DNA of 64,000 nt from Embleya scabrispora. GTDB taxonomy: Bacteria; Actinomycetota; Actinomycetes; Streptomycetales; Streptomycetaceae. Positions 586 through 15,870 of the stretch are shown here, piece by piece. The first letter of the stretch is position 1. Every line of letters starts with the position of its first letter. Both the position numbers and the translations under genes were made by a program. The notes beneath the pieces were generated by a model. It was given only the letters and a program-made list of their open reading frames with translations, was not told where the DNA came from and ran no database searches. The stretch is from the NCBI RefSeq assembly GCF_002024165.1, contig NZ_MWQN01000001.1, positions 5,001,501 to 5,065,500 on the forward strand, written 5' to 3'.

Positions 586-926
586 CCGGGCAGGGTCGCA
601 CGTCGGCCGGTTCGGCGCCGTCGGTGGTGGAGCCGGTCGGCGGCGTCGGTGGTGGGCCGGCTGTCGGAGTGGCCTGTCACGGTGGACGGGACGGGAGCGG
701 TTCGACGCGAACGTGCTCGAACATCGATCGAACACGCCGGTTCGCCCGGTACTGCGGCAATGACGTTGACGTGGGTGGGGGAGAGAGCTTTACTGGCAAA
801 CGGGATCGAACTTTTGTTCGAGAAAGAAGTTCGATTCGAACGGCACGGGGCAAACGGATGGGCAGCCGGGGTCGCGGTGCGTGGGGAAGCGCATCGCGGC
901 CCGGGCTTCGGCAGAGGAGGAGCCGT
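586..926. other. Intergenic control region between the deaminase gene and the mutagenesis operon
   Basis: No convincing coding frame. The right half is relatively A/T-rich and holds several GAAC/GTTC half-sites: a perfect LexA-type palindrome at 806-821, a second palindrome GTTCGATTCGAAC at about 829-841, and a looser pair (CGAAC, 6 bp, GTTCG) near 726-741. A purine-rich GGAGGAG lies just before the ATG at 927. Confidence 0.6.
806..821. promoter_or_regulatory. LexA (SOS) box
   Basis: TCGAACTTTTGTTCGA is a perfect 16 bp palindrome that matches the Gram-positive/actinobacterial LexA operator (CGAAC, 4 bp, GTTCG). It lies 105 bp before the first gene of the operon that contains dnaE2 and dinB, where DNA-damage control is expected. 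That LexA binds here is inferred from the motif. Confidence 0.85.
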
Positions 927-1214
927 ATGACGCGTCTGCACACCGATCCGGTGGAGGTGCTGCGCAATGGTGGGGACCCCGCGCGGTTCCTGTGGCACGA
1001 CCGGCTCTACGTGGTCCGGGAAGTGCTCGGCCACTGGGTCGAGACCGGCGAGTGGTGGCAGCACGCGCGTTCGCGGGCCGCCGTCGTGACGACGGGGGAG
1101 CGCGAGGTGTGGCGTGTGGAGGCCGGAGCCGGTCGCAGCGCGCCACTGGGCGTCTACGACCTCAGCCTGGACGCCGGCGCCGGTACCTGGACGCTGGCTC
1201 GGACCGCCGATTGA
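927..1214 (+). CDS. DUF6504 family protein
   Basis: A 95-residue protein with ATG at 927 behind a strong GGAGGAG. It is rich in tryptophan and charged residues: FLWHDRLYVVREVLGHWVETGEWW, then a short beta-rich C-terminal half (VWRVEAG, GVYDLSLD, WTLARTAD). This matches the small DUF6504 proteins found beside dnaE2/dinB in actinomycetes. Function unknown. It is the first gene after the LexA box, and the next gene begins 12 bp after its stop. The position suggests an accessory role in translesion synthesis, comparable to a mutasome accessory subunit (inference from context). Confidence 0.75.
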   Translation: MTRLHTDPVEVLRNGGDPARFLWHDRLYVVREVLGHWVETGEWWQHARSRAAVVTTGEREVWRVEAGAGRSAPLGVYDLSLDAGAGTWTLARTAD

Positions 1215-1226
1215 GGAGGTGACTCC

Positions 1227-1742
1227 GTGAGCGCAAGCGCGAGCGCGAGTGTGCGCACGAGTGTGAACCAGTCCGCCCACATCCCCGAGCCGCCGCCGAT
1301 CCGACGAGCGCCGGTGCGCTGGTCGTCCGCCCCGCGCGGCGCGCTCGACCTGCTGGCCCAGGCCCGGCGCGGGCTCACGGAGGCCGCCGTCAACCCCGAC
1401 GCGGCGGAGCGCTACGCCACCGCCCACCTGGCCGCGCTGCGGGTGGCCGCGGCCGTGCTCGCCGCCCGCGCACAGGCCGACGAGCAGCGCCCGGGCCGGC
1501 GCCGGCGGGCCCCGCGCAGCGCGTGGGAACTGCTGCCGAAGGTGGCGCCAGAGCTGGTCGAGTGGGCCGCCTTCTTCGCGTCCGGCGCCCGCAAGCGCGC
1601 CGCCGCCGAGGCGGGCCTGCCCGGCGCGGTCACCGGCCGCGAGGCCGACGACCTGATCCGCGACGTCGAGACCTTCTTCCGCCTGGTGGTGCGCCTGCTC
1701 GCACTGCCCCCGATCCCGGCCTCGCCCCCTCCCGTCGACTGA
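1227..1742 (+). CDS. SAV_6107 family HEPN domain protein
   Basis: A 171-residue protein starting at GTG 1227 behind GAGGAGGTGA. The first 40 residues are low complexity (Ser/Ala/Pro). The rest is predicted all-helical: ALDLLAQARRGLTEA, ERYATAHLAALRVAAAVLAARAQ, SAWELLPKVAPELVEWAAFFASGARKR, ADDLIRDVETFFRLVVRLLAL. The spacing of ARRGL, YATAHLAALR and VETFF resembles the SAV_6107-type HEPN helical bundle often found next to actinobacterial dnaE2. I do not see a classical HEPN RxxxxH nuclease motif, so a structural or binding role fits better than RNase activity. It lies between DUF6504 and dnaE2 in one operon. Confidence 0.75.
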   Translation: MSASASASVRTSVNQSAHIPEPPPIRRAPVRWSSAPRGALDLLAQARRGLTEAAVNPDAAERYATAHLAALRVAAAVLAARAQADEQRPGRRRRAPRSAWELLPKVAPELVEWAAFFASGARKRAAAEAGLPGAVTGREADDLIRDVETFFRLVVRLLALPPIPASPPPVD

Positions 1743-1752
1743 ACTGCACGCC

Positions 1753-1797
1753 TTTCTCGAACGCCCCTTTCTCCAACGCCCCGCCCTCGAACGCCCC
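1753..1797. repeat. 15 bp tandem repeat, three copies, in front of dnaE2
   Basis: Three adjacent 15 bp units: TTTCTCGAACGCCCC (1753-1767), TTTCTCCAACGCCCC (1768-1782), GCCCTCGAACGCCCC (1783-1797). They fill most of the 77 bp between the HEPN gene and the dnaE2 ATG. If dnaE2 began upstream they would encode repeats of F/P-S-N-A-P. Two units carry a CGAAC half-site, but none has a GTTCG partner. Confidence 0.7.
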
Positions 1798-1819
1798 CAC
1801 CCAAGAACCGGCACCACCC

Positions 1820-4800
1820 ATGAACCGACCGAATCGATCGAACCGCCCCTTCGCCCACCTGCACGTCGCGTCGGGGCATTCGATGCGCTACGGCGTCTCG
1901 CACCCGCGCATCCTGATCGAGCGAGCGGTCGAACACGGCCTGGACACCCTCGCGCTGACCGACCGGGACGGGGTGTACGGCGCGGTCGCCTTCGCGCGCG
2001 GCTGCCTCGCGGCGGGCATCCGGCCGATCCTGGGCGCCGACCTCGCGGTGCTGCCCGCCGAGCCGGATCCCGTCGCGCCGGGCCGGATCCGGCGCACCCC
2101 CGCGCGCGGCGGCGCGTTCACCGACGCCGGGCACCCCCGGGTCACCGTGCTCGCCCGGGGCAAGGCCGGTTGGGCCGCGCTGTGCCGGCTGATCAGCGAC
2201 GCGCACCGGCGCGACCGGGCCAACCCGGTGACCACCTGGGAGGCGCTGGCCGCGACCGACGGCGCCGTGGTGGTACTGGCCGGACCCGACTCCGAGGTCG
2301 GCCGGGCGCTCGCCGCCGACCGGCCCGCGCTCGCCGAACGACTGCTCGCCCGGGCCCGCGCCGTCATGCCCGACGATGCCCTGTACCTCGAACTGGTGTG
2401 CCACCTCGCGCCACCGGGCCGAGCCGGATCCGCCGTCCACGCGGCCCGGATGCTCACCCTCGCCGACACCCACCGCGTGCCCGCCGTACTCACCAACGCG
2501 GTGCGCTACGCCGACCGCGAGGACGCGGTGGTCGCCGACGTGCTCGACTCGGCCCGCCGACTGGTCCCGCTCGGCCCGCACCACCTGGCCCGCACCGGCT
2601 CCGAGGCATACCTCAAGCCCACCCTCGACATGGTCGCCGTCGCCGCCGAGATCACCTGCCTGGCCGGCCGGGGCACCGCCGCCGCGCTGCTCGGCGCCGG
2701 CCGCGCGCTGGCCGACGAACTGGTCCTGGACCCGGTCCGGGACCTGGGCCTGGGCAGCGTGTTCTACCCCGAGCCGGAGGTGCTGGGCGTGCCCGCGAGC
2801 CGGGCCGGCGCCGAACTGCGCGCGCGGTGCGAGGCGGGCCTGGGGCTGCGCGGCATCGCCCCCACCACCGAGGCGCTGGGTCGCCTCGACGACGAACTGG
2901 CGCTGATCGGCCGACTCGGCCTGCCGTCCTACTTCCTGACCGTGGCCGGCGTGGTCGACCTGATCCGGGACATGGGCGTGCGCTGCGCTGCCCGCGGCTC
3001 CGGCGCGGGCAGCCTGGTCAACCACCTGCTCGGCATCTCCGGCGTCGATCCGCTCCGATACGGCCTGCTGATGGAGCGTTTCGTCTCGGACCGGCGCACC
3101 GCGCTGCCCGACATCGACGTCGACGTCGAATCCGCCCGCCGTACCGACGTCTACCGGCGGATCATGGAGGTCTTCGGCCCGGAGCGCTGCGCCTGCGTGT
3201 CGATGGCCGAGACCTACCGCGCCCGGCACGCCATCCGCGACGTCGGCGCGGCCCTGGGCCTGGCCGCCGGCGAGATCGACGAACTGGCCAAGGCGTTCCC
3301 GCACATCCGCGCCCGCGACCTCGGTCCGGCCCTGCGCGACCTGCCCGAACTGCGCAACCACCGGCTCGCCCGGGACGGCGGCTTCGACGGCCTGTTCGCG
3401 CTCGCCGCCCGACTCGACGGCCTGCCCCGACACCTCGCCCTGCACCCGTGCGGCGTACTGCTGTCCAATCCCACGCTCCTCGACCGCACCCCCGTGGAGA
3501 CCTCCGCGCAGGGCTTCCCGATGAGCCAGTTCGACAAGGAGGACGTCGAACACCTGGGACTGCTCAAGCTCGACGTGCTCGGGGTGCGGATGCAGTCCGC
3601 GATGGCGCACGCGGTGGCCGAGATCGAACGGGTCGACGGCGCCGCCCCCGACCTGGACACGATCGCGCACGACGACCGGGCCACGTTCGACCTGATCCGC
3701 TCCACGCGCACCCTCGGCTGCTTCCAGATCGAATCGCCCGGACAGCGCGAGTTGATCGGCAAGTTCGCCCCGGAGACGTTCGAGGACATCATCGTGGACA
3801 TCTCGCTGTTCCGGCCCGGCCCGGTCAAGAGCGACATGGTCACCCCGTTCCTGGCCGCCCGCCAGGGCTGGACCGAGCCCTACTACATCCACGAAAGCCT
3901 CCGCGAGGCGCTGGCCGAGACCTGCGGTGTGGTGGTCTTCCACGAACAGGTGATCCGGATCATCCACATCGCCACCGGATGCGACCTCGCCCGCGCCGAC
4001 GTGGCCCGCCGCGCGCTGGGCAGCCACGAGCGAAAACCCGCCGTCCGGGACTGGCTGTACGAACTCGCCGCGCACCGCGGCTACAGCCGGCCGGTGATCG
4101 ACAAGATCTGGGACGTCCTGGAGGCCTTCGCCTCGTTCGGCTTCTGCAAGGCGCACGCCGCCGCCTTCGCGCTGCCCACCTACCAGTCCGCCTGGCTCAA
4201 GGCGCACCACACCGCCGCGTTCCTGGCCGGCGTGCTCACCCACGACCCCGGGATGTACCCCAAACGGTTGATCCTGGACGACGCGCGCCAGTTCGGCGTG
4301 CCGATCCTGGGCGTCGACGTCAACCGCTCCGACGACGTCTACCGGGTCGAACCCCTCGCCGAGGGACCACCCGGCATCCGGATCCCGCTGGCCGAGATCA
4401 AGGGCATCGGCGCCGACGAGGTCGCCCACGTGCTGGCCCACCGCCCGTACACCTCCCTCGTCGACTTCCGGGCCCGCAGCGGCGCGTCCCGCCCGACCAC
4501 CGAACGGCTGATCACCATCGGCGCGTTCGACGCCGTGCACCCGGCCCCGACCACCCGCCGCGACCTGCTCCTGCAACTCGCCGACCTGAACCGCCTCGGC
4601 CGAGCCGGCCGGGCCCGGGGCGGCCGACACCAGGAGGGCGCCGAACTCGACCTGGGCCTGGCCCCCGACATCCCGCCGGCCACCGGCCTGCCCGAGTTCA
4701 CCGACGTGGAACGGGTGCGAGCCGAACTCGACGTGCTCGGCCTGGACGCCGGCCGCCACGTGCTCGACTTCCACGCGCCGTTCCTGGCCGACCTGGGCGT

Positions 4801-5299
4801 CACCCGCGCCCGCGACCTGCTGAACCGGCGCAATCGCGCCGAACTGCTGGTCGCCGGGGTCAAGGTGGCCACCCAGACCCCGCCGATCCGATCCGGCCGC
4901 CGGGTGATCTTCCTGACCCTGGACGACGCCACCGGACCGGTCGACACCACCTTCTTCGAGGACGCCCAGGACCCGTACGCGGCCACGCTGTTCCACTCCT
5001 GGCTGCTGGTGGTGCGCGGGGTGCTGCGCCGCACCGGACCGCGCGGCGTGTCGCTGCGGGCCACCGGCTGCTGGGAGTTGGGCGCGCTGCACGACGCCTG
5101 GAGCATCGGCGGCGTCCCGGCGGTGCACGAGCTGATGGCCCAGGCGCGGCCGGCGCCCGCCGCGCCCGCCGAGCGCCGGGTCCTGGTGCACGCCAGCGGC
5201 TTCAAGGTCTCCCCGTACGCCGACCTGCGTCCCGCCGGCACCGCGGCCAAGCAGGCCCCGCGCAAGCTGTGGCACGCCAGCCCCGGGAGCGCGGGATGA
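1820..5299 (+). CDS. dnaE2: Error-prone DNA polymerase III alpha subunit (DnaE2/ImuC type)
   Basis: A 1159-residue C-family polymerase, the usual DnaE2 length. The N-terminal PHP domain begins FAHLHVASGHSMRYG, with the HLH pair at residues 13 and 15 and ALTDRDGVYG after it. The palm has the catalytic aspartates in PDIDVDVE (D431, D433, D435), preceded by CAARGSGAGSLVNHLLGI. Later come the helical finger region (GFCKAHAAAFALPTYQSAWLKAHH) and an OB-fold region near 1000-1080. DnaE2 enzymes extend past lesions and cause induced mutation. The family and the upstream LexA box support damage induction. The ATG at 1820 directly precedes the PHP domain but lacks a clear Shine-Dalgarno; the frame is open upstream, so a longer form cannot be excluded. 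Confidence 0.93.
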   Translation: MNRPNRSNRPFAHLHVASGHSMRYGVSHPRILIERAVEHGLDTLALTDRDGVYGAVAFARGCLAAGIRPILGADLAVLPAEPDPVAPGRIRRTPARGGAFTDAGHPRVTVLARGKAGWAALCRLISDAHRRDRANPVTTWEALAATDGAVVVLAGPDSEVGRALAADRPALAERLLARARAVMPDDALYLELVCHLAPPGRAGSAVHAARMLTLADTHRVPAVLTNAVRYADREDAVVADVLDSARRLVPLGPHHLARTGSEAYLKPTLDMVAVAAEITCLAGRGTAAALLGAGRALADELVLDPVRDLGLGSVFYPEPEVLGVPASRAGAELRARCEAGLGLRGIAPTTEALGRLDDELALIGRLGLPSYFLTVAGVVDLIRDMGVRCAARGSGAGSLVNHLLGISGVDPLRYGLLMERFVSDRRTALPDIDVDVESARRTDVYRRIMEVFGPERCACVSMAETYRARHAIRDVGAALGLAAGEIDELAKAFPHIRARDLGPALRDLPELRNHRLARDGGFDGLFALAARLDGLPRHLALHPCGVLLSNPTLLDRTPVETSAQGFPMSQFDKEDVEHLGLLKLDVLGVRMQSAMAHAVAEIERVDGAAPDLDTIAHDDRATFDLIRSTRTLGCFQIESPGQRELIGKFAPETFEDIIVDISLFRPGPVKSDMVTPFLAARQGWTEPYYIHESLREALAETCGVVVFHEQVIRIIHIATGCDLARADVARRALGSHERKPAVRDWLYELAAHRGYSRPVIDKIWDVLEAFASFGFCKAHAAAFALPTYQSAWLKAHHTAAFLAGVLTHDPGMYPKRLILDDARQFGVPILGVDVNRSDDVYRVEPLAEGPPGIRIPLAEIKGIGADEVAHVLAHRPYTSLVDFRARSGASRPTTERLITIGAFDAVHPAPTTRRDLLLQLADLNRLGRAGRARGGRHQEGAELDLGLAPDIPPATGLPEFTDVERVRAELDVLGLDAGRHVLDFHAPFLADLGVTRARDLLNRRNRAELLVAGVKVATQTPPIRSGRRVIFLTLDDATGPVDTTFFEDAQDPYAATLFHSWLLVVRGVLRRTGPRGVSLRATGCWELGALHDAWSIGGVPAVHELMAQARPAPAAPAERRVLVHASGFKVSPYADLRPAGTAAKQAPRKLWHASPGSAG

Positions 5300-5351
5300 C
5301 CTCCGTACACGCTCTAAGGTGGAACCCGACCGGTTCCGGAGGAGGGTGTTC

Positions 5352-6110
5352 GTGTCCGACCAGACGCGCAGGCGCAGCTCGATGCGCACCGCCGTCGTGT
5401 GGCAGGTGCTGCGCGAGGCGTTGGACCGACGGGCCGAGGCGGCCGGGCGGGACGTCCTCGACGTGCTCGACACCGGCGGCGGCACCGGCAACCTCGCGGT
5501 GCCCATCGCCCGACTCGGACACCGGGTCACCGTTGTCGACCCCAGCCCCGACGCGCTCGCCGCGCTGGAGCGCCGGGCCGCCGAGGCCGGGGTCACCGAC
5601 CTGGTCCGCGCCCTCCAGGGCGACACCCACGACCTGTTCGACGTGGTCGAGCCGGACGCCGCCGACGTGGTGTTGTGCCACGGCGTCCTCGAGGTCGTGG
5701 ACGACCCCGCGGCCGACCTCGGCCGGATCGTCCGCGCGCTGCGCGCCGGCGGCACGCTCAGCCTGCTCGCGGCCAACCGCACCGGCGCGGTCCTGGCCCG
5801 CGCCCTCGCCGGGCACTTCGACCAGGCCCGCGACCTGCTCGTCGACCCCGAGGGCCGCTACGGCCCGGCCGACCCGCTGCCGCGCCGGTTCACCGTCGCC
5901 GACCTCACCGCGCTGGTCGCCAAGGCCGGTTTGGCGGCGGGCCCGGTGCACGCGATCCGGGTCTTCGCCGACCTGGTCCCGGGCGTCCTGGTCGACGACC
6001 CGGGCTCGTTCGACGCCCTCCTCGACCTCGAACGCGCCGCGGCCGAACAGCCCGAGTACCGCGCCCTGGCCACCCAACTGCACCTGCTCGCGGGCAAGCC
6101 GGCGGCTTAG
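5352..6110 (+). CDS. Class I SAM-dependent methyltransferase
   Basis: A 252-residue Rossmann-fold methyltransferase. Motif I is VLDTGGGTGNLAVPIARLG, the acidic end of beta-2 is VTVVDPSPDALAALERRA, and motif IV/V is ADVVLCHGVLEVVDDP followed by LRAGGTLSLLAANR. The GTG at 5352 is chosen because GGAGGAGGG ends about 7 bp before it; GTGs at 5346 and 5319 are in frame but poorly spaced. The C-terminal half (RRFTVADLTALVAKAGL) is typical of small-molecule or tRNA-type SmtA/UbiE-like enzymes. Substrate unknown. It sits between two translesion polymerases, 52 bp after dnaE2 and 66 bp before dinB, which is consistent with co-transcription. Confidence 0.85.
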   Translation: MSDQTRRRSSMRTAVVWQVLREALDRRAEAAGRDVLDVLDTGGGTGNLAVPIARLGHRVTVVDPSPDALAALERRAAEAGVTDLVRALQGDTHDLFDVVEPDAADVVLCHGVLEVVDDPAADLGRIVRALRAGGTLSLLAANRTGAVLARALAGHFDQARDLLVDPEGRYGPADPLPRRFTVADLTALVAKAGLAAGPVHAIRVFADLVPGVLVDDPGSFDALLDLERAAAEQPEYRALATQLHLLAGKPAA

Positions 6111-6176
6111 CTCCGCCTTCGGCCCGGGGCCCGCTTCCTCCCACCTCGGCCGCGACGCCCGGACGGGCGGTGCCGG

Positions 6177-7388
6177 ATGAGCACCGCCCGGTCCGCACCG
6201 CCGCAGGCGATCATGCACGTCGACATGGACGCCTTCTACGCGTCCGTCGAGATCCGCCGCGACCCGACGCTGCGCGACACCCCCCTGGTGGTGGCCGGCC
6301 AGGGCCCGCGCGGGGTGGTGCTCTCCGCCACCTACGACGTGCGCGCGCTGGGCGTGCACGCCGGCCAGGCCACCTCCCGGGCCCGCCGGCTCGCCCCGCA
6401 CGCGCTCTTCCTCTCACCGGAGTACGACGACTACGCCCGCGTCTCCGGCGGCGTCATGGAGGTGCTGCGCTCGATCACCCCGCGCGTGGAGCCGCTGTCC
6501 CTGGACGAGGCGTTCCTCGACCTCGCGGGCGTCACCCGCCGTCTGGGCCCGCCGGAGACGGTGGGCGAGTCGATCCGCGCCCGGATCTTCGACGAGCAGG
6601 GCATCACCTGCTCGGTCGGCATCGCGGACACCAAGTTCACCGCCAAACTGGCCGGCGCCCTGGCCAAACCCGACGGGCTCAGCGTGATCCGCCCCGAGCA
6701 GGTGGTGGACTTCCTGCACCCGCTTCCGGTGGACCGCCTGTGGGGCGTCGGCGAGCGCACCGGCGCGTTGTTGACCGATCTGGGCCTGACCACCATCGGT
6801 GATGTCGCCCACACCTCGGTCGAGACGCTGAGCCGCGCGCTCGGCGCCGCCGCCGGGCGCGGGCTGTACGAACTCGCCTGGGGACGGGACCGCCGGCCGG
6901 TGATCCCCTGGGAACCCGAACGCAGTATCGGCGCCGAGGAGACCTTCCCCACCGACGTGGACGACCCGGTGGCGATCCGCCGCACCCTGCTCGCCCTCGC
7001 GCACCGCACCGCGACCCGGCTGCGCCGGGCGAAGACGGCCGGGCGGACCGTCACGATCAAGATCCGGTTCGCCGACTTCAGCACCATCACCCGCAGCAAA
7101 ACCCTGCGCGAGGCCACCGACGTGGGCCACGAGATCTACCACGTGGCCTGCCTGCTGCACGGCGCGCTGGGCCTGGAACGGGCCCGGCTGCGCCTGGTCG
7201 GGATCCGGGTGGAGGGCCTGGTCGGCGGCGCCTGCCCGCGCCAACTGGTGCTCGGCGAACGGGATACGGGCCGGCGCGAGGTGGAGCGCGCGGCCGACGC
7301 GGTGCGCGGCCGATTCGGCGATTCGGCGCTCACCGCCGCCACCCTGCTCGGTCGCGGGCCCCGTGCCCGAGGCCCGCGAGGGCGCTGA
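6177..7388 (+). CDS. dinB: DNA polymerase IV, Y-family translesion polymerase
   Basis: A 403-residue Y-family polymerase. The first catalytic aspartate is D16 in IMHVDMDAFYASVE; the second acidic pair is D110-E111 in PLSLDEAFLDL. The thumb helix-hairpin-helix follows (RLWGVGERTGALLTDLGLTTIGDVA), then the little finger (TIKIRFADFSTITRSKTL). A QLVLGE segment near the C-terminus resembles the beta-clamp-binding peptide, although the final hydrophobic residue is replaced. ATG 6177 is the first start; an internal ATG at 6213 would remove 12 poorly conserved residues. It is the last gene of the LexA-boxed operon. In other actinomycetes the Y-family partner of DnaE2 is the inactive ImuB, whereas this one keeps its catalytic residues. 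Confidence 0.93.
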   Translation: MSTARSAPPQAIMHVDMDAFYASVEIRRDPTLRDTPLVVAGQGPRGVVLSATYDVRALGVHAGQATSRARRLAPHALFLSPEYDDYARVSGGVMEVLRSITPRVEPLSLDEAFLDLAGVTRRLGPPETVGESIRARIFDEQGITCSVGIADTKFTAKLAGALAKPDGLSVIRPEQVVDFLHPLPVDRLWGVGERTGALLTDLGLTTIGDVAHTSVETLSRALGAAAGRGLYELAWGRDRRPVIPWEPERSIGAEETFPTDVDDPVAIRRTLLALAHRTATRLRRAKTAGRTVTIKIRFADFSTITRSKTLREATDVGHEIYHVACLLHGALGLERARLRLVGIRVEGLVGGACPRQLVLGERDTGRREVERAADAVRGRFGDSALTAATLLGRGPRARGPRGR

Positions 7389-7605
7389 ACCGCCGCCCGC
7401 CGCCGGCCCCGGGCCCCCGCGCGCCGCCGCCGCGGACCCGCCCGGCCCCGTCCCTCAGCGCGAACCCGCCCGGGCCGCATATCATCGAAGCCCTGACCGG
7501 GGGACATGAGCGTGCGTCGGGCAGGGCACAACTGTGGGAAGGGGCGGGAATCGATGTGGTGAACCCTCACGCGGTGCCGGGTGTCGAGCCCGTGCCGAGG
7601 GTGGC

Positions 7606-7634
7606 TTTCACGACAGCGATTACCTGCCTATCCT
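7606..7634 (+). promoter_or_regulatory. Candidate promoter of the DUF3040 gene
   Basis: TTTCAC (7606-7611) and TATCCT (7629-7634) are separated by 17 bp, 45 bp before the GTG at 7679. The rest of the 290 bp gap after dinB shows no coding signal. Confidence 0.45.
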
Positions 7635-7678
7635 GAAAGGGCCGCAAGGTCGCGTCGCGGCCGACGAAGGAGGACGCC

Positions 7679-8071
7679 GTGCCGCTCTCAGAGCACGAGC
7701 AGCGCATGCTTGAGCAGATGGAGCGAGCGCTCTACGCCGAAGATCCCAAATTCGCGACAGCGCTCGAAGCAGCCGGCATGCGCCGGCATACCCGGCGACG
7801 CACCGTTCAGGCGATCCTCGGATTCCTGCTCGGCATCGTCCTGTTGATGACCGGCATGATGGTCCAACAGATCTGGGTCAGTGTCATCGGCTTTCTGGCG
7901 ATGCTCGGTGGGGCGCTCCTCGCGGTCACCGGATGGCGCCGGGGGCCGGCGACGCCCGACGCGGGCGAAGGCGGCGGCGCGGGCCGCGGTCGCGCGCCGC
8001 GCCGGCGCAAGGCCAAAGTGATGAACCGCATCGAGGACCGCTGGCGTCGTCGACGCGAGGAGAACGGCTGA
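7679..8071 (+). CDS. DUF3040 domain membrane protein
   Basis: A 130-residue protein from GTG 7679 behind GAAGGAGGA. It opens with MPLSEHEQRMLEQMERALYAEDPKFA, the hallmark of DUF3040. Two membrane helices follow at about 42-61 and 65-80 (AILGFLLGIVLLMTGMMVQ, VSVIGFLAMLGGALLAVTGW), then a strongly basic tail (GRAPRRRKAKVMNRIEDRWRRRREE). DUF3040 proteins lie close to the division cluster in many actinobacteria. Their function is not known. A bidirectional hairpin terminator lies about 100 bp downstream. Confidence 0.85.
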   Translation: MPLSEHEQRMLEQMERALYAEDPKFATALEAAGMRRHTRRRTVQAILGFLLGIVLLMTGMMVQQIWVSVIGFLAMLGGALLAVTGWRRGPATPDAGEGGGAGRGRAPRRRKAKVMNRIEDRWRRRREENG

Positions 8072-8170
8072 CGTTCGGCGCGTACCGCACCGCGTCGACG
8101 ACGCGACCGGGCAGGCCCGGTCGCCACGGGTGAGTCCCGGGCGCGACGTCGAGACGGGGCGGCATACGAG

Positions 8171-8239
8171 ACGACAACGCCGGTGGCGGTGACCTCCGAG
8201 GGAATCGGAGGCCACCGCCACCGGCGTTTTGTCGTCGTG
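8171..8239. terminator. Long bidirectional hairpin terminator
   Basis: A G/C-rich inverted repeat: CGCCGGTGGCGGTG and CCTCCG pair with CGGAGG and CACCGCCACCGGCG around a short loop near 8200-8205. Flanking AACG/GTTT and ACGACA/TGTCGT extend the stem and leave a T-run at 8226-8229. It separates the DUF3040 gene (plus) from the transglutaminase gene (minus). Confidence 0.85.
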
Positions 8240-8296
8240 CCCGGTGCCCGGTGTCCGCTGCCCCGGGTCGGGCGGGCGGCCGGGGCCGCCCGCCGC

Positions 8297-10138
8297 TCAG
8301 CCGAGGTCGGCCGGCTTCGGCGTGCCGCCCGGGCCCTCGCCCCGGCGACGCCGCGGCAGCCGGGGCCGGAACCGCTCGGCGAGCGCGTACCGGCGCTCGG
8401 CCCGGCTCGGCCCGCCCCGACGGCGCAACGACGGCGGGAGCAGGCTCGCCCGCAACCGTCGACCGCGTCCGGCCCGGGCCAGCAGACCCCGGCGCACCGC
8501 CCGCACGTCCTCGCCGAGGCCCGGCTCGCGGACCGGCGGGGTGGCCGCGTACAACAGCCGCTCGGTGGCGAGCGCGATCCGGGGCAGCGCCTCGCGGGCG
8601 GCGAGCACGGCCGATCCCGCCGCGAGTCGCCCGGTGTCGTCGGCTTCCCCCGCACCGTCGGCGGCGGGGGCGTCGACCGCCAGCACGGCGAGCAGCCGTT
8701 CGGCGGCCTGGCGCGGAGTCTCCGCCTCCGGTGCCGGGTGGCCCAGGTCGCGGGCGGTGTCCAGCACCTCGGCCCAGCCGCCGAGCACCGGCCCGGCGCG
8801 GTCGTCGGCATCGACGTCGGCCGCCACGTCCCGGGTGAGCGCCGCGAACCGGCGTCGCCGGACCCGGGCGCGGACCAGCATCGGCGCCACCACGAGCAGC
8901 ACCACCAGCAACACGGCCCCGCCGATCAGCAGCACCCGGCCGGACAGCCGCGGCCCGTCCGAGGAGGCGCCGACGGCGGCCGGCGCGCTGGTCGTGGCGG
9001 TCGACGGCCCGGCGCTCGGCACCGTCTGCGGCTGCTTGGAGGGCAGGTCGCCCGCACTGCCCGGAGTGGCCGACGGTGCGACCGGTGCCACGTCCTGCTG
9101 GGCGTAGGACGGCGAGTTGCCCCGGGAGGGGGTCGGCTCGAACCGGATCCAGCCCGCGCCGGAGAAGTACAGCTCCGGCCACGCGTGCGCGTCGTGGCTG
9201 CTGACCTTGTAGCTCATGTCGGCCTGCTGCGTGCCGGGGATGAAGCCGACCGCGATCCGTGCCGGGATGCCCAGGGTGCGGGCCATCACCGCCATCGCGG
9301 AGGAGAACTGTTCGCAGTAGCCGACCTTCTGCTCCAGGAAGTTCTCCAGCGCCGAGGCGCCGTTGCCCGGCGGGACCTTGGTGTCGTAGCGGAACTGGTT
9401 GGAGCGGGCGAACCACTCCTCCAGGTTGCGGGCCCGGTCGTAGGAGGTGCCGTTGCCGCCGATCCGCAACGCCTGCTGGCGGATCCGGTTCACCATGTCG
9501 GAGGGCAGGTTCAGCGCCACGTAGGGCGCGAGCGCGGGCGGCGGCGGGCCGGCGGCCTTGAGCTGGGCGGGGGTCGGTTCGACGTCGAGGCTGGTCACCG
9601 TCCAGCCGAGGCCGCGCAGACCCTGCTTGTTGTCGGCCAGCAGCAGGCGGCCCTCGGGCTCGTAGCGCCAACTGCCCTTCACCTGGACCTGCGTCGCCGG
9701 GTAGGGCATCGGCAGCGAACCCTGGTCGTAGTCCCGGTCGGACTCGACCCGGGTGACCACCTCGGAGGTGCGCACCCCCTGGTCCAGGCCCGGCGGCTTG
9801 GGGAAGTCCTTGGGCACGTCGATCAGTTGCCGCTCCGACGGCTGCCAGGAGCGGCCGTCGAACCGGTCGAGGGAGGAGATCCGCAGATAGATCGAGCCGG
9901 GCGTGGCGGAGTTGGTGCGGTAGCGCATCAACTCCCGGTTCTCCGCCCGGTTCAGCTCGTCGGAGAGCTTGACCACGGGGTTGATCGTGGTCAGCCGATG
10001 CGACTGGGGCCCGTTGTCGTTCTTGTCCAGGAGCCGGTTCGCGCTCAGCGGGATCAGCGCGGGCACCGCCACGGCCACCGCCAGGGCGGCCACGCCGATC
10101 CGGCCGCCGCCGCGGGCGGGCGGGCGGTACTGGCGCAT
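8297..10138 (-). CDS. Transglutaminase-like protein, C-terminal part of a TgpA-type protein split by a frameshift
   Basis: 613 residues from ATG 10138. After one membrane helix (IGVAALAVAVAVPALIPL) comes a long extracytoplasmic region with a transglutaminase core: KVGYCEQFSSAMAVMARTLGIPARIAVGF (catalytic Cys), SSHDAHAWPELYF (His) and GWIRFEPTPSRG (Asp region). Then a low-complexity Ser/Thr/Pro linker, a second membrane helix (VLLIGGAVLLVVLLVVAPMLV) and a cytoplasmic DUF4129-like tail. Intact TgpA proteins have six or so N-terminal helices; here those are encoded in a different frame at 10054-10749, overlapping this one. A missing base in the C/G run at 10151-10156 would explain the split. The product may be a separate protein starting at 10138, or part of an inactivated gene. 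Confidence 0.75.
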   Translation of the reverse strand: MRQYRPPARGGGRIGVAALAVAVAVPALIPLSANRLLDKNDNGPQSHRLTTINPVVKLSDELNRAENRELMRYRTNSATPGSIYLRISSLDRFDGRSWQPSERQLIDVPKDFPKPPGLDQGVRTSEVVTRVESDRDYDQGSLPMPYPATQVQVKGSWRYEPEGRLLLADNKQGLRGLGWTVTSLDVEPTPAQLKAAGPPPPALAPYVALNLPSDMVNRIRQQALRIGGNGTSYDRARNLEEWFARSNQFRYDTKVPPGNGASALENFLEQKVGYCEQFSSAMAVMARTLGIPARIAVGFIPGTQQADMSYKVSSHDAHAWPELYFSGAGWIRFEPTPSRGNSPSYAQQDVAPVAPSATPGSAGDLPSKQPQTVPSAGPSTATTSAPAAVGASSDGPRLSGRVLLIGGAVLLVVLLVVAPMLVRARVRRRRFAALTRDVAADVDADDRAGPVLGGWAEVLDTARDLGHPAPEAETPRQAAERLLAVLAVDAPAADGAGEADDTGRLAAGSAVLAAREALPRIALATERLLYAATPPVREPGLGEDVRAVRRGLLARAGRGRRLRASLLPPSLRRRGGPSRAERRYALAERFRPRLPRRRRGEGPGGTPKPADLG

Positions 10139-10749
10139 CGGCGGATGGCCGGGGGGATCGGCGGGGCCAGGGGCCGGCCCCAGCGCAGCAGCCGCTCGCG
10201 GCCCTCCGCGAGCAGCAGCAGGACGTAGGCCAGCGCCGCGATCAGGAAGACCGCCCAGCCGAGGCCGGACTGGGACAGCGCGGCGGGCACGCTGTAGAGC
10301 GCGAGCAGAGGCAGGCCCGCCGGCGCGGCCTGGGCGTAGGTCACCGCGATCATGTCCACGATCACGGCCACGCCGCCCATCACCGTGAGCAGGATCGCGA
10401 CGATCCCGGGCGTGGCGGGCGCGGGCGTGCTGAACTCGCGGATGTCCTGCCCGCCGGCACGCATCAACTCCACGAACGCGTCGACGCTGCTCGGGGTCGG
10501 GATCGGGCCGCTGGCGTCGGGGACGCAGACCAGAAGCAGGTAGGGCACCAGGGCGGCGACCTGGGTCAATCCCACGATCGGGCGCGGCACCCGGATCCGC
10601 CGGGCTCCCTCGCCGACCAGGGCGACCAGCAGGATCGCGCCCAGTCCCTGGGCGATCCAGCCGCCCGCGTCGACCAGCGGGAGCAGTGCGGACGAGGTCA
10701 GCGCGGTCGCGAGGGCCGCGACCAGGGCCAGACGCAGTCGGCCGGTCAT
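10054..10749 (-). CDS. TgpA-type N-terminal membrane domain (DUF3488), 5' part of the split transglutaminase gene
   Basis: 231 residues from ATG 10749, overlapping the DUF58 gene stop by ATGA. About six hydrophobic helices are visible (LALVAALATALTSSALLPL, IAQGLGAILLVALVG, LTQVAALVPYLLLVC, IVAILLTVMGGVAVIVDMIAV, LPLLALYSVPAALS, WAVFLIAALAYVLLLLAEG), followed by RERLLRWGRPLAP. After about codon 200 the sequence turns into low-quality Arg/Pro/Trp-rich residues and stops at 10054, while the homologous continuation appears one frame away. A -1 shift near 10151-10156 would join the two parts into one protein of roughly 815 residues. The MoxR-DUF58-TgpA order is a well-known conserved gene set. Confidence 0.7.
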   Translation of the reverse strand: MTGRLRLALVAALATALTSSALLPLVDAGGWIAQGLGAILLVALVGEGARRIRVPRPIVGLTQVAALVPYLLLVCVPDASGPIPTPSSVDAFVELMRAGGQDIREFSTPAPATPGIVAILLTVMGGVAVIVDMIAVTYAQAAPAGLPLLALYSVPAALSQSGLGWAVFLIAALAYVLLLLAEGRERLLRWGRPLAPPIPPAIRRCASTARPPAAAAGSAWPPWRWPWRCPR

Positions 10750-12155
10750 GGCCGTTCCCCTCCGTCGACGGTGGAGCCCCCGATCGTGGGCGCCGCGCGC
10801 GGGCGCGGCGGCGGGCCCGGGGCGGCGGGCGTGGGTACGGGCGCGGGGGACGCGGGGGCGGCGGCGCGCGCGGTGCCGGCATAGGACATCGAGCCGGCGG
10901 CGGCCGGGTCGCCCACCCGGCCGGCCGAGCGCCACAGTTCGGACAGCCGGGAGCCGGCCCGGGCGGAGAGCACCCGCCAGCCGGCCTGGCGGAGCAGGCC
11001 CACCGCGCTGTCGTGCGGCAGCGCGCCGGGTACCCGGCCCCACGTGTTCACGTCCAGGACGATCGCGACTCCGCGCCCGGACCGGTGTCGGGCCCGGCCG
11101 AGCCGCTTGACGTCGTCCTCGGTCAGCGCGCCGAGCACGGCGACGGTCAGGCCGCCGCCCGCCGGGTCGCGCAGGGCGGGCTCGGCCTGGTCCAGGGCGC
11201 TCACCGGCACCGTCTCCACCACCGCGAGCGCGTCCAGCAGGAAACCCTCCAGGTCGCCGGGCGCGGCCCGGATGCCCTCCAGGTCCCCGGCGAGCGCGTC
11301 GCCCTCGGCGTCGAGCAGGCGGGTGGTGTAGCCGCGCCGGCACAGGTGTACGCCCACGGAAGCGGCGGCCGAGACCACCCATTCGAAGGACGAGGCCGGT
11401 CCGTCGCCCACGTGCGCGCCGGCACGGGTGTCGATCAGTACGGTGGCCCGGTTCTGCCAGGCCTGTTCCTCGCGGCGCACCATCAGTTCGCCGCGGCGGG
11501 CGGTGGAGCGCCAGTGCACCCGGCGCACGTCGTCGCCGTGCCGGTACTCGCGCGGGACCACGTCCTCCTCGCCGGACGCGGACACGTTGCGGGCGTGGCT
11601 GTCGCCGTAGCCGGTCCACTCGCCGCCCAGGTCCACCGCAGGCAGCGGCTGCACGGCCGGGGTGACCACGAGGGTGTCCCGGGCGGCGAAGGAACGGGTC
11701 AACTCGCACATCCCGAACGGATCGGCCATCCGCAACCGCAGCGGGCCCACCAAAAAACGCCCGCGCAGATCCGAGCGCACCCGATAGGACACGTGCCGGT
11801 TGCCGTGCGGCTCGATCCGGTCCAGCACGAAGCGGGGCCGCGAGCCGAGGACGTAGGGCACGTGGTCCTCGAGCATCAGCAGACCGGTGGGGATGCGCGA
11901 GACGTTGTCCACGCGCAGCCGCACCTGGGACTCGTGGCCGACCGCCACCCGGGGCGGCTCCAGCCCCCGGGCGCTGGTGACCAGGTGCCGGGTGCGGGCG
12001 ACGATCAGGACCGCCACCAGCGGCAGCGCGGTGAGCAGGAAGCCGACCCGCAGCAGGTCGCGTTGACCCAGGACCACCGCGCAGATGCTCGCGGCGATCC
12101 CCGCCGCGAGGAAGGAGCGCCCCCGGGTGGTCAGGCCGGACAGTGCGGTACGCAC
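10746..12155 (-). CDS. DUF58 domain protein
   Basis: A 469-residue protein from ATG 12155. Two membrane helices lie at the N-terminus (SFLAAGIAASICAVVLG, VGFLLTALPLVAVLIVA). A beta-rich segment follows, then the DUF58 core EDVVPREYRHGDDVRRVHWRSTARRGELMVR, after which a von Willebrand A-like fold begins (RATVLIDTRAG). The C-terminal 60 residues are Ala/Pro-rich and probably disordered. It lies one base after the MoxR stop and overlaps the next gene by four bases, so the three genes form one translationally coupled unit. In such units the MoxR ATPase is thought to act as a chaperone for DUF58 partners; the exact role here is unknown. Confidence 0.88.
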   Translation of the reverse strand: MRTALSGLTTRGRSFLAAGIAASICAVVLGQRDLLRVGFLLTALPLVAVLIVARTRHLVTSARGLEPPRVAVGHESQVRLRVDNVSRIPTGLLMLEDHVPYVLGSRPRFVLDRIEPHGNRHVSYRVRSDLRGRFLVGPLRLRMADPFGMCELTRSFAARDTLVVTPAVQPLPAVDLGGEWTGYGDSHARNVSASGEEDVVPREYRHGDDVRRVHWRSTARRGELMVRREEQAWQNRATVLIDTRAGAHVGDGPASSFEWVVSAAASVGVHLCRRGYTTRLLDAEGDALAGDLEGIRAAPGDLEGFLLDALAVVETVPVSALDQAEPALRDPAGGGLTVAVLGALTEDDVKRLGRARHRSGRGVAIVLDVNTWGRVPGALPHDSAVGLLRQAGWRVLSARAGSRLSELWRSAGRVGDPAAAGSMSYAGTARAAAPASPAPVPTPAAPGPPPRPRAAPTIGGSTVDGGERP

Positions 12156-12156
12156 G

Positions 12157-13344
12157 TCAGCGCGCCGCCCCGGAACCCGTGCCGCCGAGGCGGCCGTCGG
12201 ACGGTACCGGCGCGTAGCCCTCGTGCGCGGTCGGCGCCTGCGTCGGGTACGGCCGGCCGCCGTTGTGGTGCGGGACGCCGCCCGGGTAGGGCTGGTGGGC
12301 GGGCGGCACCGGCGGGGCGGGCACGATCTGCGGCGCGCCGACCGCCCGGCCCTGGCCCGCGTGCGGGGCCTGGCCGGCGGGGGCGCCGGGGACCGGGACC
12401 TGGCGCACGATGTCGGCGACGATCTGCTCCGGGGTGCGCCGGGCCATCTGCGCGTCGGCGGTGGGCAGCAGGCGGTGGGCCAGCACCGAGACGGCCAGGG
12501 TCTGCAGATCGTCCGGCAGGACGTAGTCGCGGTTGTCCAGGGCGGCCGCCGCCCGGGACGCGCGGACCAGGTGCAGGGTGGCGCGCGGCGAGGCGCCCAG
12601 GCGCAGTTCGGGCGAGCGGCGGGTGGCGTTGACCAGGTCGACCGCGTAGCGCGCGACGGCCGGGGACACGTGCACCCGGCGTACGGCGTCGGCGAGGCGG
12701 ACCAGGTCCCGTGCGTCGGCGACCGGGGTCAGGTCGGTCAGCGGGGAGCCCGCGCTGTGGCCGCCGATCATCCGCAACTCGGCGTCGATCGCCGGGTATC
12801 CCATCGAGACGCGGGCCATGAACCGGTCCCGCTGCGCCTCGGGCAGAGGATACGTTCCCTCCATCTCCACCGGGTTCTGCGTCGCGATCACCATGAACGG
12901 CGCGCTCAACTCGTAGGTGGTGCCGTCGACGGTGACCTGGCGCTCGGCCATGCACTCCAGGAGCGCGGACTGGGTCTTCGGCGAGGCCCGGTTGATCTCG
13001 TCGCCGACCACGATGTTGGCGAAGATGGCGCCCGGCTTGAACTCGAACTCGCGCTTCTCCTGGTCGAAGACGCTGACGCCGGTGATGTCCGAGGGCAGCA
13101 GGTCCGGGGTGAACTGGACCCGACGCATGTCGCAATCGACGGATCGCGCGAGGGCCTTCGCCAGCATCGTCTTGCCGACTCCCGGAACGTCCTCGACGAG
13201 GAGGTGGCCCTCGGCCAGCAGCACCGTCAAGGCGAGGCGGACGACCTCGGGCTTGCCCTCGATCACGGTCTCCATGGCCCCGCGGATCCGATCGGTGGTG
13301 ACCGTCAGATCCCCCAGACCGGCCTGATCGTTGAACGTCGACAC
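12157..13344 (-). CDS. MoxR family AAA+ ATPase
   Basis: A 395-residue protein from GTG 13344. The AAA+ core shows Walker A in VEDVPGVGKTMLAKALA, Walker B in NIVVGDEINRASPKTQSALLE, sensor 1 in FMVIATQNPVEMEGTYPLPEAQRDRFM and the C-terminal lid with PRATLHLVRASRAAAAL. These are the standard MoxR motifs. The last 80 residues are Pro/Gly/His-rich and disordered, an extension beyond the usual length of about 320. First gene of the minus-strand unit with DUF58 and TgpA. The 824 bp upstream, shared with the divergent mraZ, should contain its promoter. Confidence 0.92.
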   Translation of the reverse strand: MSTFNDQAGLGDLTVTTDRIRGAMETVIEGKPEVVRLALTVLLAEGHLLVEDVPGVGKTMLAKALARSVDCDMRRVQFTPDLLPSDITGVSVFDQEKREFEFKPGAIFANIVVGDEINRASPKTQSALLECMAERQVTVDGTTYELSAPFMVIATQNPVEMEGTYPLPEAQRDRFMARVSMGYPAIDAELRMIGGHSAGSPLTDLTPVADARDLVRLADAVRRVHVSPAVARYAVDLVNATRRSPELRLGASPRATLHLVRASRAAAALDNRDYVLPDDLQTLAVSVLAHRLLPTADAQMARRTPEQIVADIVRQVPVPGAPAGQAPHAGQGRAVGAPQIVPAPPVPPAHQPYPGGVPHHNGGRPYPTQAPTAHEGYAPVPSDGRLGGTGSGAAR

Positions 13345-14092
13345 CCGTGCCCCTCCCTGGAACCGCGTTGTGCACGCCCTGGGTCAGGGCCACAGGCCGA
13401 TTCTCCCGGTAGCGTGCGCTGCCGTCACCCCGTTGGACGGCCCGGACAACGCGCATTGCGACTCCGGACGGTAGCCGACGCGGCGTGGAGGGCGATCCGG
13501 TCGGCACGAAAGGCTTCGGCCGAGACGGGTCGATTCCCTCGATGGTGCCGCGCCGATCCGGAATTCGGGTCGGCGGGAGAGGCGACGGAGCCTATGACTG
13601 CTCGGGACGTCTTCCGGTTGCACGTCGGAGAGCGGGAAAACCTCGCGCGGCAGGCCGGTGGTGACGTCGTGGACGAAACCGCGCACTTCTCGCGGTGCGG
13701 CGGGAACGGGGAGCGGCGCACCCGGTTCATCGACCGGTGCACGTCGCCGTCGAGATCGACGAACGCCTCGACCGCACTGCTCCGCGTAGAGGCGGCTGGC
13801 TGCGACAAGACGATCGGCCATGGTCGGGACGTTGTCGATCGCGAGCCCGACGTGCCTCGTGGGGGAGCCGCACCGCCCGATATGCGGACGACCCGTGACA
13901 TTCTCGCGCTATGAGCGCTAATCCCGGAATGGGAGATTCATACCGGGAGCCCAGAGGTGAAAAGGCTGAAACCCGCGCCCGGTGCGGGGGAGTGGCGTGC
14001 GGGGGGCGCGCAATCGGGTGGTTCTTCCGATGCACCCCCTCTGACCTGGGCTTTTATTCCCCTTGGGACCAGAGTGACGCGCCCGAAAAGGG

Positions 14093-14120
14093 TTGACCGT
14101 GGGGTTTGGTGGAGTAGAGT
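14093..14120 (+). promoter_or_regulatory. mraZ promoter
   Basis: TTGACC (14093-14098), 16 bp, TAGAGT (14115-14120): a good vegetative sigma-factor promoter 48 bp before the mraZ ATG. The -10 element lies inside the MraZ box repeats, which suits autorepression. Confidence 0.7.
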
Positions 14121-14138
14121 GGCGGGAAATGGAGCCCA
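14099..14138 (+). promoter_or_regulatory. MraZ box: 10 bp direct repeats
   Basis: GTGG recurs at 14099, 14109 and 14119, with ATGG at 14129, an exact 10 bp period (GTGGGGTTTG, GTGGAGTAGA, GTGGCGGGAA, ATGGAGCCCA). Known MraZ operators are GTGG-type repeats spaced one helical turn apart just before mraZ. Binding is inferred from this pattern and position. Confidence 0.75.
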
Positions 14139-14168
14139 CAAGCTCCTGACGGCGGCCGGAGGTGCTCG

Positions 14169-14609
14169 ATGTTCCTGGGCACATACGAGCCCCGATTGGA
14201 CGACAAGGGCCGGCTGATCCTGCCGGCGCGGTTCCGGGACGAGCTGGCGGAGGGCCTTGTGATCACAAAGGGGCAGGAACGCTGCCTCTATGTGTGGCCC
14301 ATCGCGGAGTTCACCCGGATCGCCGAGCAGTTGGGCCGAGCCCCGGTGACCTCGAAGGCGGCGCGCGACTACATGCGCGTGCTCTACGCCGGGGCCTCCG
14401 ACGCGGTGCCGGACAAGCAGGGGCGGGTGCTGGTGCCGCAACCCCTGCGCGACTACGCGGGTCTGGACCGGGACAGTCGGGACTGCGTCGTCATCGGGAC
14501 CAACACCCGGGTCGAGCTGTGGGCCGCCCAGACCTGGCACGACTACCTCGCGGAGCAGGAGCGGTCCTTCGCCGTGTTGTCCGAGGAGGTGCTGCCCGGC
14601 CTGATCTGA
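14169..14609 (+). CDS. mraZ: Transcriptional regulator MraZ
   Basis: A 146-residue protein from ATG 14169 behind GGAGG. It has the two tandem AbrB-like half-domains of Mra[27 protein letters not shown] at the N-terminus and [25 protein letters not shown] from about residue 75. Each contains the DxKGRxxx[10 protein letters not shown] loop that contacts DNA in the ring-shaped oligomer. MraZ represses its own promoter and modulates the dcw operon. The repeats overlapping the promoter directly upstream are the expected target. It is the first gene of the division cluster. Confidence 0.95.
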
Positions 14610-14891
14610 GCCGATCCGAGCGCGGCGATGCCCGCCGCGTCTTCTCGAGCTCCCCGAGTCGCATCCTCACAACGTGGTCTTGCCCGGCGCACCTGCGGCG
14701 AGGTCTCCACCCGCTCCGAGCTTTCTGGCACTCCTTCCCCGGTGCCAGAGGTCACTTCCCCAGACGAGCGGGCGGGGACCTGGCGGCACGGTTCGCGGCA
14801 GGTTCCGCGAGAAGGTTGTACCTCGGCCTCTAGACTGCGGGTTTCCGCACGACGAAGGGCCCGGAGTGAACGCGACGATGGTGGAGGGGCC

Positions 14892-15845
14892 GTGACGGCA
14901 CCCGCCCACATTCCGGTCCTGCTGGAGCGGTGTGTCGACCTGTTGGCCCCCGCGTTGCGCGCACCCGGAGCGATCGTGGTGGACGCGACGCTCGGCATGG
15001 GCGGGCACAGCGAGGCCCTGCTCACCGCCTTCCCCGAGGTACGGCTGATCGGCCTCGACCGCGACCCCGAGGCGCTGGAGCGCTCCGCGGCCCGGCTCGC
15101 GGGTTTCGGCGAGCGGGCGACGCTGGTGCACGCGGTGTACGACGAACTGCCCGAGGTGCTGGACCGGCTCGGGATCGAGCGGATCGACGGCATCCTGTTC
15201 GACCTCGGCGTGTCCTCGCTGCAACTGGACCGGGCCGATCGCGGCTTCGCCTACGCGCAGGACGCGCCGCTCGACATGCGGATGGACCCGACCGTGGGCA
15301 TCACCGCGGCCGACATCCTGAACGGCTACACCGCCGCTGAGTTGGCCCGGATCCTGCGCGACTTCGGCGAGGAGCGGTTCGCCCGCAGGGTGGCCGACGC
15401 GATCGTGCGCGAGCGGGAGAAGGAGCCGTTCACCACGAGCGCGCGGCTGGTCGACGTGGTGCGCACCGCGATCCCGGCCGCGACGCGGCGTACCGGCGGC
15501 AATCCCGCCAAGCGCACCTTCCAGGCCCTGCGGATCGAGGTCAATGGGGAACTCGCGGTGCTGGAGCGGGCGTTGCCGGCCGCCGTGCGGGCGCTCGCGC
15601 TGCACGGGCGGATCGTGGTGATGTCCTACCACTCGCTGGAGGACCGGATGACCAAGCGGGTGTTCGCGGCCGGCGCGCAGAGCAAGGCGCCGCCGGACCT
15701 GCCGGTGGTGCCGGAGGAGTTGCAACCGCGGTTCAAGCTGCTCACACGCGGTTCGGAGAAGGCGAGCGAGCGGGAGAACGAGGAGAACCCGCGCGCGGCA
15801 TCGGTGCGGTTGCGGGCCGCGGAGCGGGTGCGGGAAGACCGGTGA
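14892..15845 (+). CDS. rsmH: 16S rRNA (cytosine1402-N4)-methyltransferase
   Basis: 317 residues from GTG 14892 behind [24 protein letters not shown] at the start, SAM motif I in [34 protein letters not shown] and the catalytic-region [15 protein letters not shown] are all diagnostic of RsmH (MraW). The C-terminal [16 protein letters not shown] is also conserved. It methylates N4 of C1402 in the ribosomal P site using SAM. The 282 bp between mraZ and rsmH contain no further gene. The C-terminal stretch is highly charged ([28 protein letters not shown]), which is normal for the family. Confidence 0.95.
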
Positions 15846-15870
15846 ATCGACGCGGCGGACGGGGGAGCCG

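Follow-up and report, generated by a model that had tools for sequence, protein, structure and literature searches.

The closest described relative of the system analysed here is a mutasome made up of DnaE2B, an active Y-family polymerase (PolY), a free-standing C-terminal domain of ImuB (ImuB-C) and RecA, which was predicted computationally, only in Actinobacteria, with Tessaracoccus lapidicaptus as its exemplar (Timinskas et al. 2026, PMC12926913). AlphaFold models are reported there to support all 11 complex types, and they place the C-terminal domain of ImuB on the PHP domain of DnaE2. The locus in question lies in a 64,000-nucleotide stretch of the Embleya scabrispora genome (contig NZ_MWQN01000001.1, positions 5,001,501 to 5,065,500, forward strand; the whole stretch is referred to as the window), in which a LexA box precedes genes for a DUF6504 protein, a HEPN protein, DnaE2, a methyltransferase and DinB. 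It is probably a LexA-controlled translesion-synthesis operon, the products of which would make up a mutasome of this DnaE2B-[ImuB-C]-PolY-RecA type.

Three further systems are related to it. The ImuA-ImuB-DnaE2 system of Mycobacterium tuberculosis and the proteobacteria likewise has a DnaE2 cassette under LexA control and includes an ImuB-C domain, and the C-terminal part of M. tuberculosis ImuB is reported to bind DnaE2 and ImuA' (PMC6511836). The Embleya locus differs from it as no ImuA was found, the ImuB-C candidate is a separate protein, the Y-family protein is of the active type, and the DnaE2 is only ~30% identical and belongs to another clade. Free ImuB-C was described in 2013 and has also been found with other repair genes (PMC3765255); a Geobacter lexA-imuB-C-polY operon shares the free ImuB-C and an active PolY under damage control but has no DnaE2, and the accessible text of the same 2019 survey does not show DnaE2B, ImuB-C and PolY in combination (PMC6511836). 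Thirdly, the Streptomyces DnaE2B-iPolY type (dnaE2-dinB2/dinP) has a DnaE2 of the sister clade, often with the same C-terminal tail, whereas its PolY, which by eye is without the catalytic motifs, falls in a separate clade, and no adjoining DUF6504 was found in the four loci examined. In S. venezuelae, mitomycin C raises dnaE2 30.6-fold and dinP 13.7-fold, and LexA binds there (PMC9380542).

The T. lapidicaptus locus (L255) consists of a LexA-like box matching at 11 of 12 bases, DUF6504, DnaE2 and DinB, and it groups with Embleya in both polymerase trees. Judged from sequence, the two appear to share a DnaE2B-clade polymerase, a free ImuB-C and an active-type PolY, with no ImuA or ImuB found; because this is the exemplar species and the composition is the same, the Embleya operon is regarded as a further case of the predicted type. 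A HEPN gene and a methyltransferase gene are present in Embleya, and neither was found in the T. lapidicaptus locus. The words HEPN, methyltransferase, LexA and SRDF were not found in the main text of PMC12926913, nor was the name DUF6504 found in the literature searched. An earlier, sequence-only reading of this DNA had proposed DUF6504 and the HEPN protein as unrecognised adapters of a LexA-controlled DnaE2 mutagenesis operon. Its operator, DnaE2, active-type Y-family protein and DUF6504 have stood; the HEPN protein as adapter has not, and 'unrecognised' no longer fits since a 2026 paper (PMC12926913) already predicts the combination of free ImuB-C, DnaE2B and active PolY.

The LexA box and the genes behind it

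The LexA/SOS box, TCGAACTTTTGTTCGA, is a perfect palindrome at 806-821 on the plus strand, was located by pattern search and locus comparison, and fits the S. venezuelae LexA motif tCGAAC-N4-GNNCGa (PMC9380542). In the host genome (10,958,352 bases in 8 contigs, 98.6% complete) the pattern TCGAACNNNNGTTCGA has one exact match, at the operon box, and the reversed-pattern control gave 0; the palindrome of the earlier reading is thus the sole exact copy genome-wide. Its sequence is identical in E. hyalina and in a related E. scabrispora locus. One genome per species was scanned with a six-row DUF6504 alignment, which gave 89 relatives, and 80 named loci were kept. A perfect box is present within 500 bp upstream of DUF6504 in 59 of these and a match at 11 of 12 bases in 14 further loci; there are 60 perfect boxes in the 39,231 bp of upstream sequence versus 1 in the other 1,041,864 bp of the same 80 loci. 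All 80 carry actinobacterial titles except one labelled 'uncultured bacterium' and one labelled spirochaete. The latter is an actinobacterial-looking operon on a contig labelled as a Spirochaetaceae metagenome-assembled genome (MAG; L197), a label which is perhaps a binning error.

By eye, a putative promoter was recognised at 766-794 on the plus strand, with TTGACG (766-771) and TTTACT (789-794) separated by 17 bp, and the LexA box begins 11 bases past it. Both hexamers are unchanged in two other Embleya species, and the E. scabrispora locus has one spacer change. A sigma-70 scan of 600-8300, which demands A at position 2, reported no promoter. If 766-794 does serve as the promoter, the locus would have a LexA operator at its promoter, as expected of a LexA regulon member. 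Just 3' of the LexA box is a second palindrome, GTTCGATTCGAAC (829-841), in which one base differs in E. hyalina and which is not kept in the E. scabrispora locus.

Five genes follow the box, all on the plus strand and separated by gaps of 12, 77, 52 and 66 bases; coordinates and Pfam matches bear out the order DUF6504, HEPN, DnaE2, methyltransferase and DinB as it had been proposed. They may be read as a single transcript, and a terminator scan of 600-8300 gave a single terminator-like site, on the minus strand, with shuffled sequences averaging 1.5. Across the survey, a DnaE2 match lies on the same strand and no more than 5 kb downstream of DUF6504 in 69/80 loci (a few are partial, e.g. L191, L260 and L269), while 8 of the 11 loci without one end within 3.5 kb and L200, L214 and L264 do not. 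Where at least 7.9 kb of downstream sequence was available, DinB was present in 51/57 loci and the methyltransferase in 38/57. From these counts, the core of the operon is taken to be the LexA box, DUF6504, DnaE2 and DinB. The arrangement in L264 (a Nocardioides MAG) is divergent, with a DnaE2B on the opposite strand (3709-7839) to DUF6504-HEPN and two perfect LexA boxes (7816 and 7917) around the space between them.

DUF6504 and the search for ImuA and ImuB

Neither imuA nor imuB was found in the host genome. PF00817 matched two proteins there, both of the active type; in groups f3, f6, f7, f8 and f65 this model does pick up ImuB-like proteins. An ImuB profile detected only the two DinBs (83.5 and 62.5 bits), compared with 756-825 bits in five genomes which, having supplied the rows of the profile, are a control by construction. 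An ImuA' query taken from genome G198 gave nothing convincing in the host (15.7 bits, E 0.04) and 49-134 bits in four other ImuB genomes. The claim that no homologue of either is visible therefore holds for ImuA and for whole ImuB, but not for the ImuB C-terminus, to which DUF6504 appears homologous.

The DUF6504 protein (927-1214, plus strand, 95 residues; PF20114, E 4.6e-19) is most readily understood as an ImuB C-terminal domain that stands alone, a link which is an addition of the present analysis and which supports its proposed place in the adapter position. Near the C-terminus of ten proteobacterial ImuBs, PF20114 matches above the cut-off (24.2 bits) in four, below it in four and not at all in two, and one ImuB is named 'DUF6504 family protein' by NCBI. 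Only one of 14 control genomes is matched by PF20114, that of Caulobacter vibrioides, which carries imuB. When 16 free DUF6504 proteins were compared as a profile with 10 ImuB C-termini, the match had Prob 95.9 and E 5.7e-9; L096 and L119, being badly extracted, had been dropped before profile building. An AlphaFold2 model of DUF6504 from a 56-row alignment has six strands and one short helix (mean predicted local distance difference test score 80.7, predicted template modelling score 0.70), and a structure comparison gave no clear relative in the PDB. This agrees with the published description of ImuB-C as a beta-barrel without close PDB relatives (PMC12926913).

Several results weigh against this homology. 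PF20114 matches none of three actinobacterial ImuBs, and the profile comparison of DUF6504 with six actinobacterial ImuB C-termini is weak (Prob 28.9), the 10-row set and this 6-row actinobacterial set themselves matching with Prob 76.1. DUF6504 also matches one DUF402 protein (L177, 2824-3504) over FxWRxRxYxV, with Prob 68.5 and E 4.6e-5, so the signal shared with ImuB-C may in part be a common strand pattern. Kinship of DUF6504 with DUF402 was considered and left as a lead. ImuB-C against the same DUF402 protein has a Prob of only 0.4; this protein, which lies 4-5 kb from dnaE2-dinB2 in genome G023, is a possible lead to the DUF6504 fold, not directly to ImuB-C.

The two polymerases

The DnaE2 gene (1820-5299, plus strand, 1159 residues) was assigned by tree and alignment to the DnaE2B clade, a label borrowed from PMC12926913 and applied here on the basis of our own quick tree of 43 rows. 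In that tree it groups with the T. lapidicaptus DnaE2 within the operon clade (Shimodaira-Hasegawa-like approximate likelihood ratio test 95), and this clade is sister to the Streptomyces type (100) and apart from seven ImuB-linked DnaE2s (100) and the two host DnaE1s. Identity is 48-55% to the Streptomyces type and ~30% to the ImuB-linked DnaE2s. The NCBIfam models for DnaE1 (611.8 bits) and error-prone DnaE2 (606.6 bits) both scored below their cut-offs and gave no decision. In the alignment the polymerase Asp motif PDIDVD is kept, and Tyr and Arg replace an Asp and a His of the host DnaE1. These two positions are presumably metal ligands of the PHP domain, and the PHP metal site of the operon DnaE2 thus appears to be altered.

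The operon DnaE2 ends in RKLWHASPGSAG. Of the operon-type DnaE2 frames, 71 extend to the C-terminus, and 68 of these finish with a motif of the form [LV]W[HQ]xSxGSxG (LWHxSPGSxG-like); the other three appear broken or truncated, and a few of the 71 rows are the same genome twice. SRDF-like C-termini occur in the ImuB-linked rows, and the operon DnaE2 has no SRDF-type tail. This DnaE2B tail motif is a second addition of the present analysis. It was considered as a docking peptide for DUF6504 and rejected. In a comparison that recovered the tail from 19 of 20 host-family stretches (L276-L295; none from L286), the tail Trp is kept in 11 of 15 copies without detected DUF6504 and is missing in one with it (G249), and the tail is therefore seen as independent of DUF6504.

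Further DnaE2 copies were observed in Embleya. The host genome has a second, frame-broken DnaE2B (L273, G000:C5:180214-183177) and, on the same contig, a second DnaE1 (L274, C5:141828-145073); this 357-kb contig is perhaps a plasmid. In another E. scabrispora locus (L191, from ~8821) the dnaE2 match covers only residues 1-407 before a methyltransferase match begins, so that the operon dnaE2 looks truncated, and another DnaE2B is present on contig C147 of that genome.

The Y-family polymerase (DinB/PolY; 6177-7388, plus strand, 403 residues) has the motifs HVDMDAFY and SLDEAF, and keeps the catalytic Asp and Glu residues, as the earlier reading had it. Among the operon DinBs (53 frames), both catalytic motifs are intact in 48, while one frame is broken and four have Glu for the second Asp. 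These four (L239, L259, L263 and L266, from three Ornithinimicrobium and an Actinomycetales MAG) have SMEEAF instead of SxDEAF, which is perhaps a step towards an inactive PolY. Two trees were built, the first including eight wrong-strand rows and the second using corrected rows and a quick method. The operon PolYs and that of T. lapidicaptus lie on one side of a branch supported by 98/98 in the first and 99 in the rebuilt tree, together with some DinBs of no group, and both trees show three groups, with the operon DinBs separated from both ImuB and the inactive Streptomyces DinB2. The latter is a separate clade and not nested, and the idea that it is a decayed operon DinB was rejected. The protein also contains QLVLG, a clamp-like motif.

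Proposed mechanism and alternatives

In the undamaged cell, LexA bound to 806-821, just 3' of the putative promoter, would block transcription; following damage, RecA would trigger LexA self-cleavage and the genes would be read as one unit. By analogy with the predicted complexes, the products may assemble into a mutasome of the DnaE2B-[ImuB-C]-PolY-RecA type, in which the clamp and RecA would bring the Y-family polymerase to the stalled fork, with RecA standing in for ImuA. The free ImuB-C (DUF6504) would link PolY with DnaE2B by docking on the PHP domain of the latter, a contact that the models give to the ImuB C-terminus in its fused form, and DnaE2B, with its PHP proofreading site altered, would extend the mismatched end, with mutagenesis as the expected outcome. 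The HEPN protein and the methyltransferase would be co-transcribed passengers from an older neighbourhood beside the dcw cluster.

The alternative that survives best, though rather unlikely, is that LexA merely co-induces DnaE2B and DinB, each of which acts alone, while DUF6504 assists just one of the two or takes part in some other repair step. Several observations lean this way and count against a shared complex. Two Streptacidiphilus loci (L200 and L214) have an 11/12 box, DUF6504, HEPN and the methyltransferase without either polymerase, and DnaE2B was not found in genome G248, which has DUF6504. Of 14 genomes sampled from family f65, a DUF6504 match was obtained in 12 and a match at the DnaE2B level in none; the single genome examined carries ImuB together with a DnaE2 of the other type. 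DnaE2B is in turn common without DUF6504: it is present in 19/20 host-family genomes with DUF6504 and in 91/130 without, a difference which is only suggestive, and tight co-occurrence of the two was not accepted. (G023, with E 0.003, was excluded from this count, reducing it from 21 to 20, as its match lay in the DUF402 protein.) Free ImuB-C, as mentioned, also occurs with other repair genes (PMC3765255), and an S. coelicolor mutant in dnaE2, of the sister clade, was reported to be without phenotype (PMC3919608). The PolY tail, moreover, resembles the RecA N-terminus by eye (RFGDSAL compared to NFGKGSV), but a profile of this tail (47/53 tails) scored 3.8 bits, below the best of 1,000 shuffles at 6.6 bits. 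What argues against separate polymerases is the same gene order behind one LexA box across many actinobacterial families, the placement of both polymerases in groups that match the operon type, and the likely homology of DUF6504 to the part of ImuB that binds DnaE2; for these reasons the shared mutasome is preferred.

Two other loci show different arrangements. In L113 (genome G388, family f65), DUF6504 and HEPN lie behind an 11/12 LexA-like box, TCGAACAAAGATTCGA at 6403, without DnaE2B, and ImuA', ImuB and a DnaE2 of the other type are encoded in the same genome. In L169 (genome G192, 6201-16374), a partial HEPN match, ImuA', ImuB, an ImuB-linked DnaE2, a methyltransferase and a near-operon-type DinB occur together, and the canonical cassette seems to occupy the slot held by DUF6504-DnaE2B in the host operon.

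A role for the HEPN protein in the mutasome, whether as missing adapter or as regulatory subunit, is much less probable. The protein (1227-1742, plus strand, 171 residues; HEPN_SAV_6107, PF18726, E 1.7e-35) does lie between DUF6504 and DnaE2 in 59/69 loci with both, and it is well conserved: across 50 rows RYAxAH (R62-H67) hardly varies. This string was considered as the RX4-6H motif of HEPN endoribonucleases, but it sits close to where the domain begins. However, 9/69 loci, among them that of T. lapidicaptus, lack the HEPN protein and leave no space where its gene could lie, and in one more it was not found. It is also present in 145/150 host-family genomes compared to ~20/150 for DUF6504, so that most HEPN genomes are without DUF6504, and in all 12 examined host-family loci without DUF6504 it adjoins the methyltransferase with no operon polymerase near. 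The available text of a HEPN survey lists the family without a catalytic motif and without genomic context (PMC3710099). Given this distribution, an adapter role is improbable for the HEPN protein, which is best read as a member of an older neighbourhood that was later co-transcribed. Both it and the methyltransferase (5352-6110, plus strand, 252 residues, class I; best NCBI model CmoM with 103 bits, cut-off 366) are regarded as optional passengers. The operon lies upstream of an apparent dcw cell-division cluster, in which an mraZ-like frame lies at ~14.1 kb.

A canonical ImuA-ImuB-DnaE2 mutasome with ImuA and ImuB encoded elsewhere in the genome finds no more than a general parallel in mycobacteria, where cassettes can be split (PMC6511836), and can be dismissed, as neither ImuA' nor ImuB was found in the 98.6% complete genome and the DnaE2 lies outside the ImuB-linked clade and is without an SRDF-type tail.

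More tentatively, the DnaE2B-[ImuB-C]-PolY-RecA mutasome may be one SOS-induced complex with two active polymerases, in which insertion opposite the lesion falls to PolY and extension to DnaE2B, with free ImuB-C as an exchangeable clip; ImuB might then be a later fused, burnt-out form, and the HEPN protein an optional co-induced arm facing RNA or the ribosome.

The ImuB-C part of the predicted actinobacterial mutasome is now tied to a Pfam name, DUF6504, and such operons can therefore be found from ordinary annotation. The LexA box at most of the 80 loci is a further addition to the predicted type. The Embleya operon offers a genetically simple case, in a soil actinomycete, of whether two active translesion polymerases can share one complex, and it also bears on the role of the ImuB C-terminus as a protein of its own, detached from a dead polymerase.

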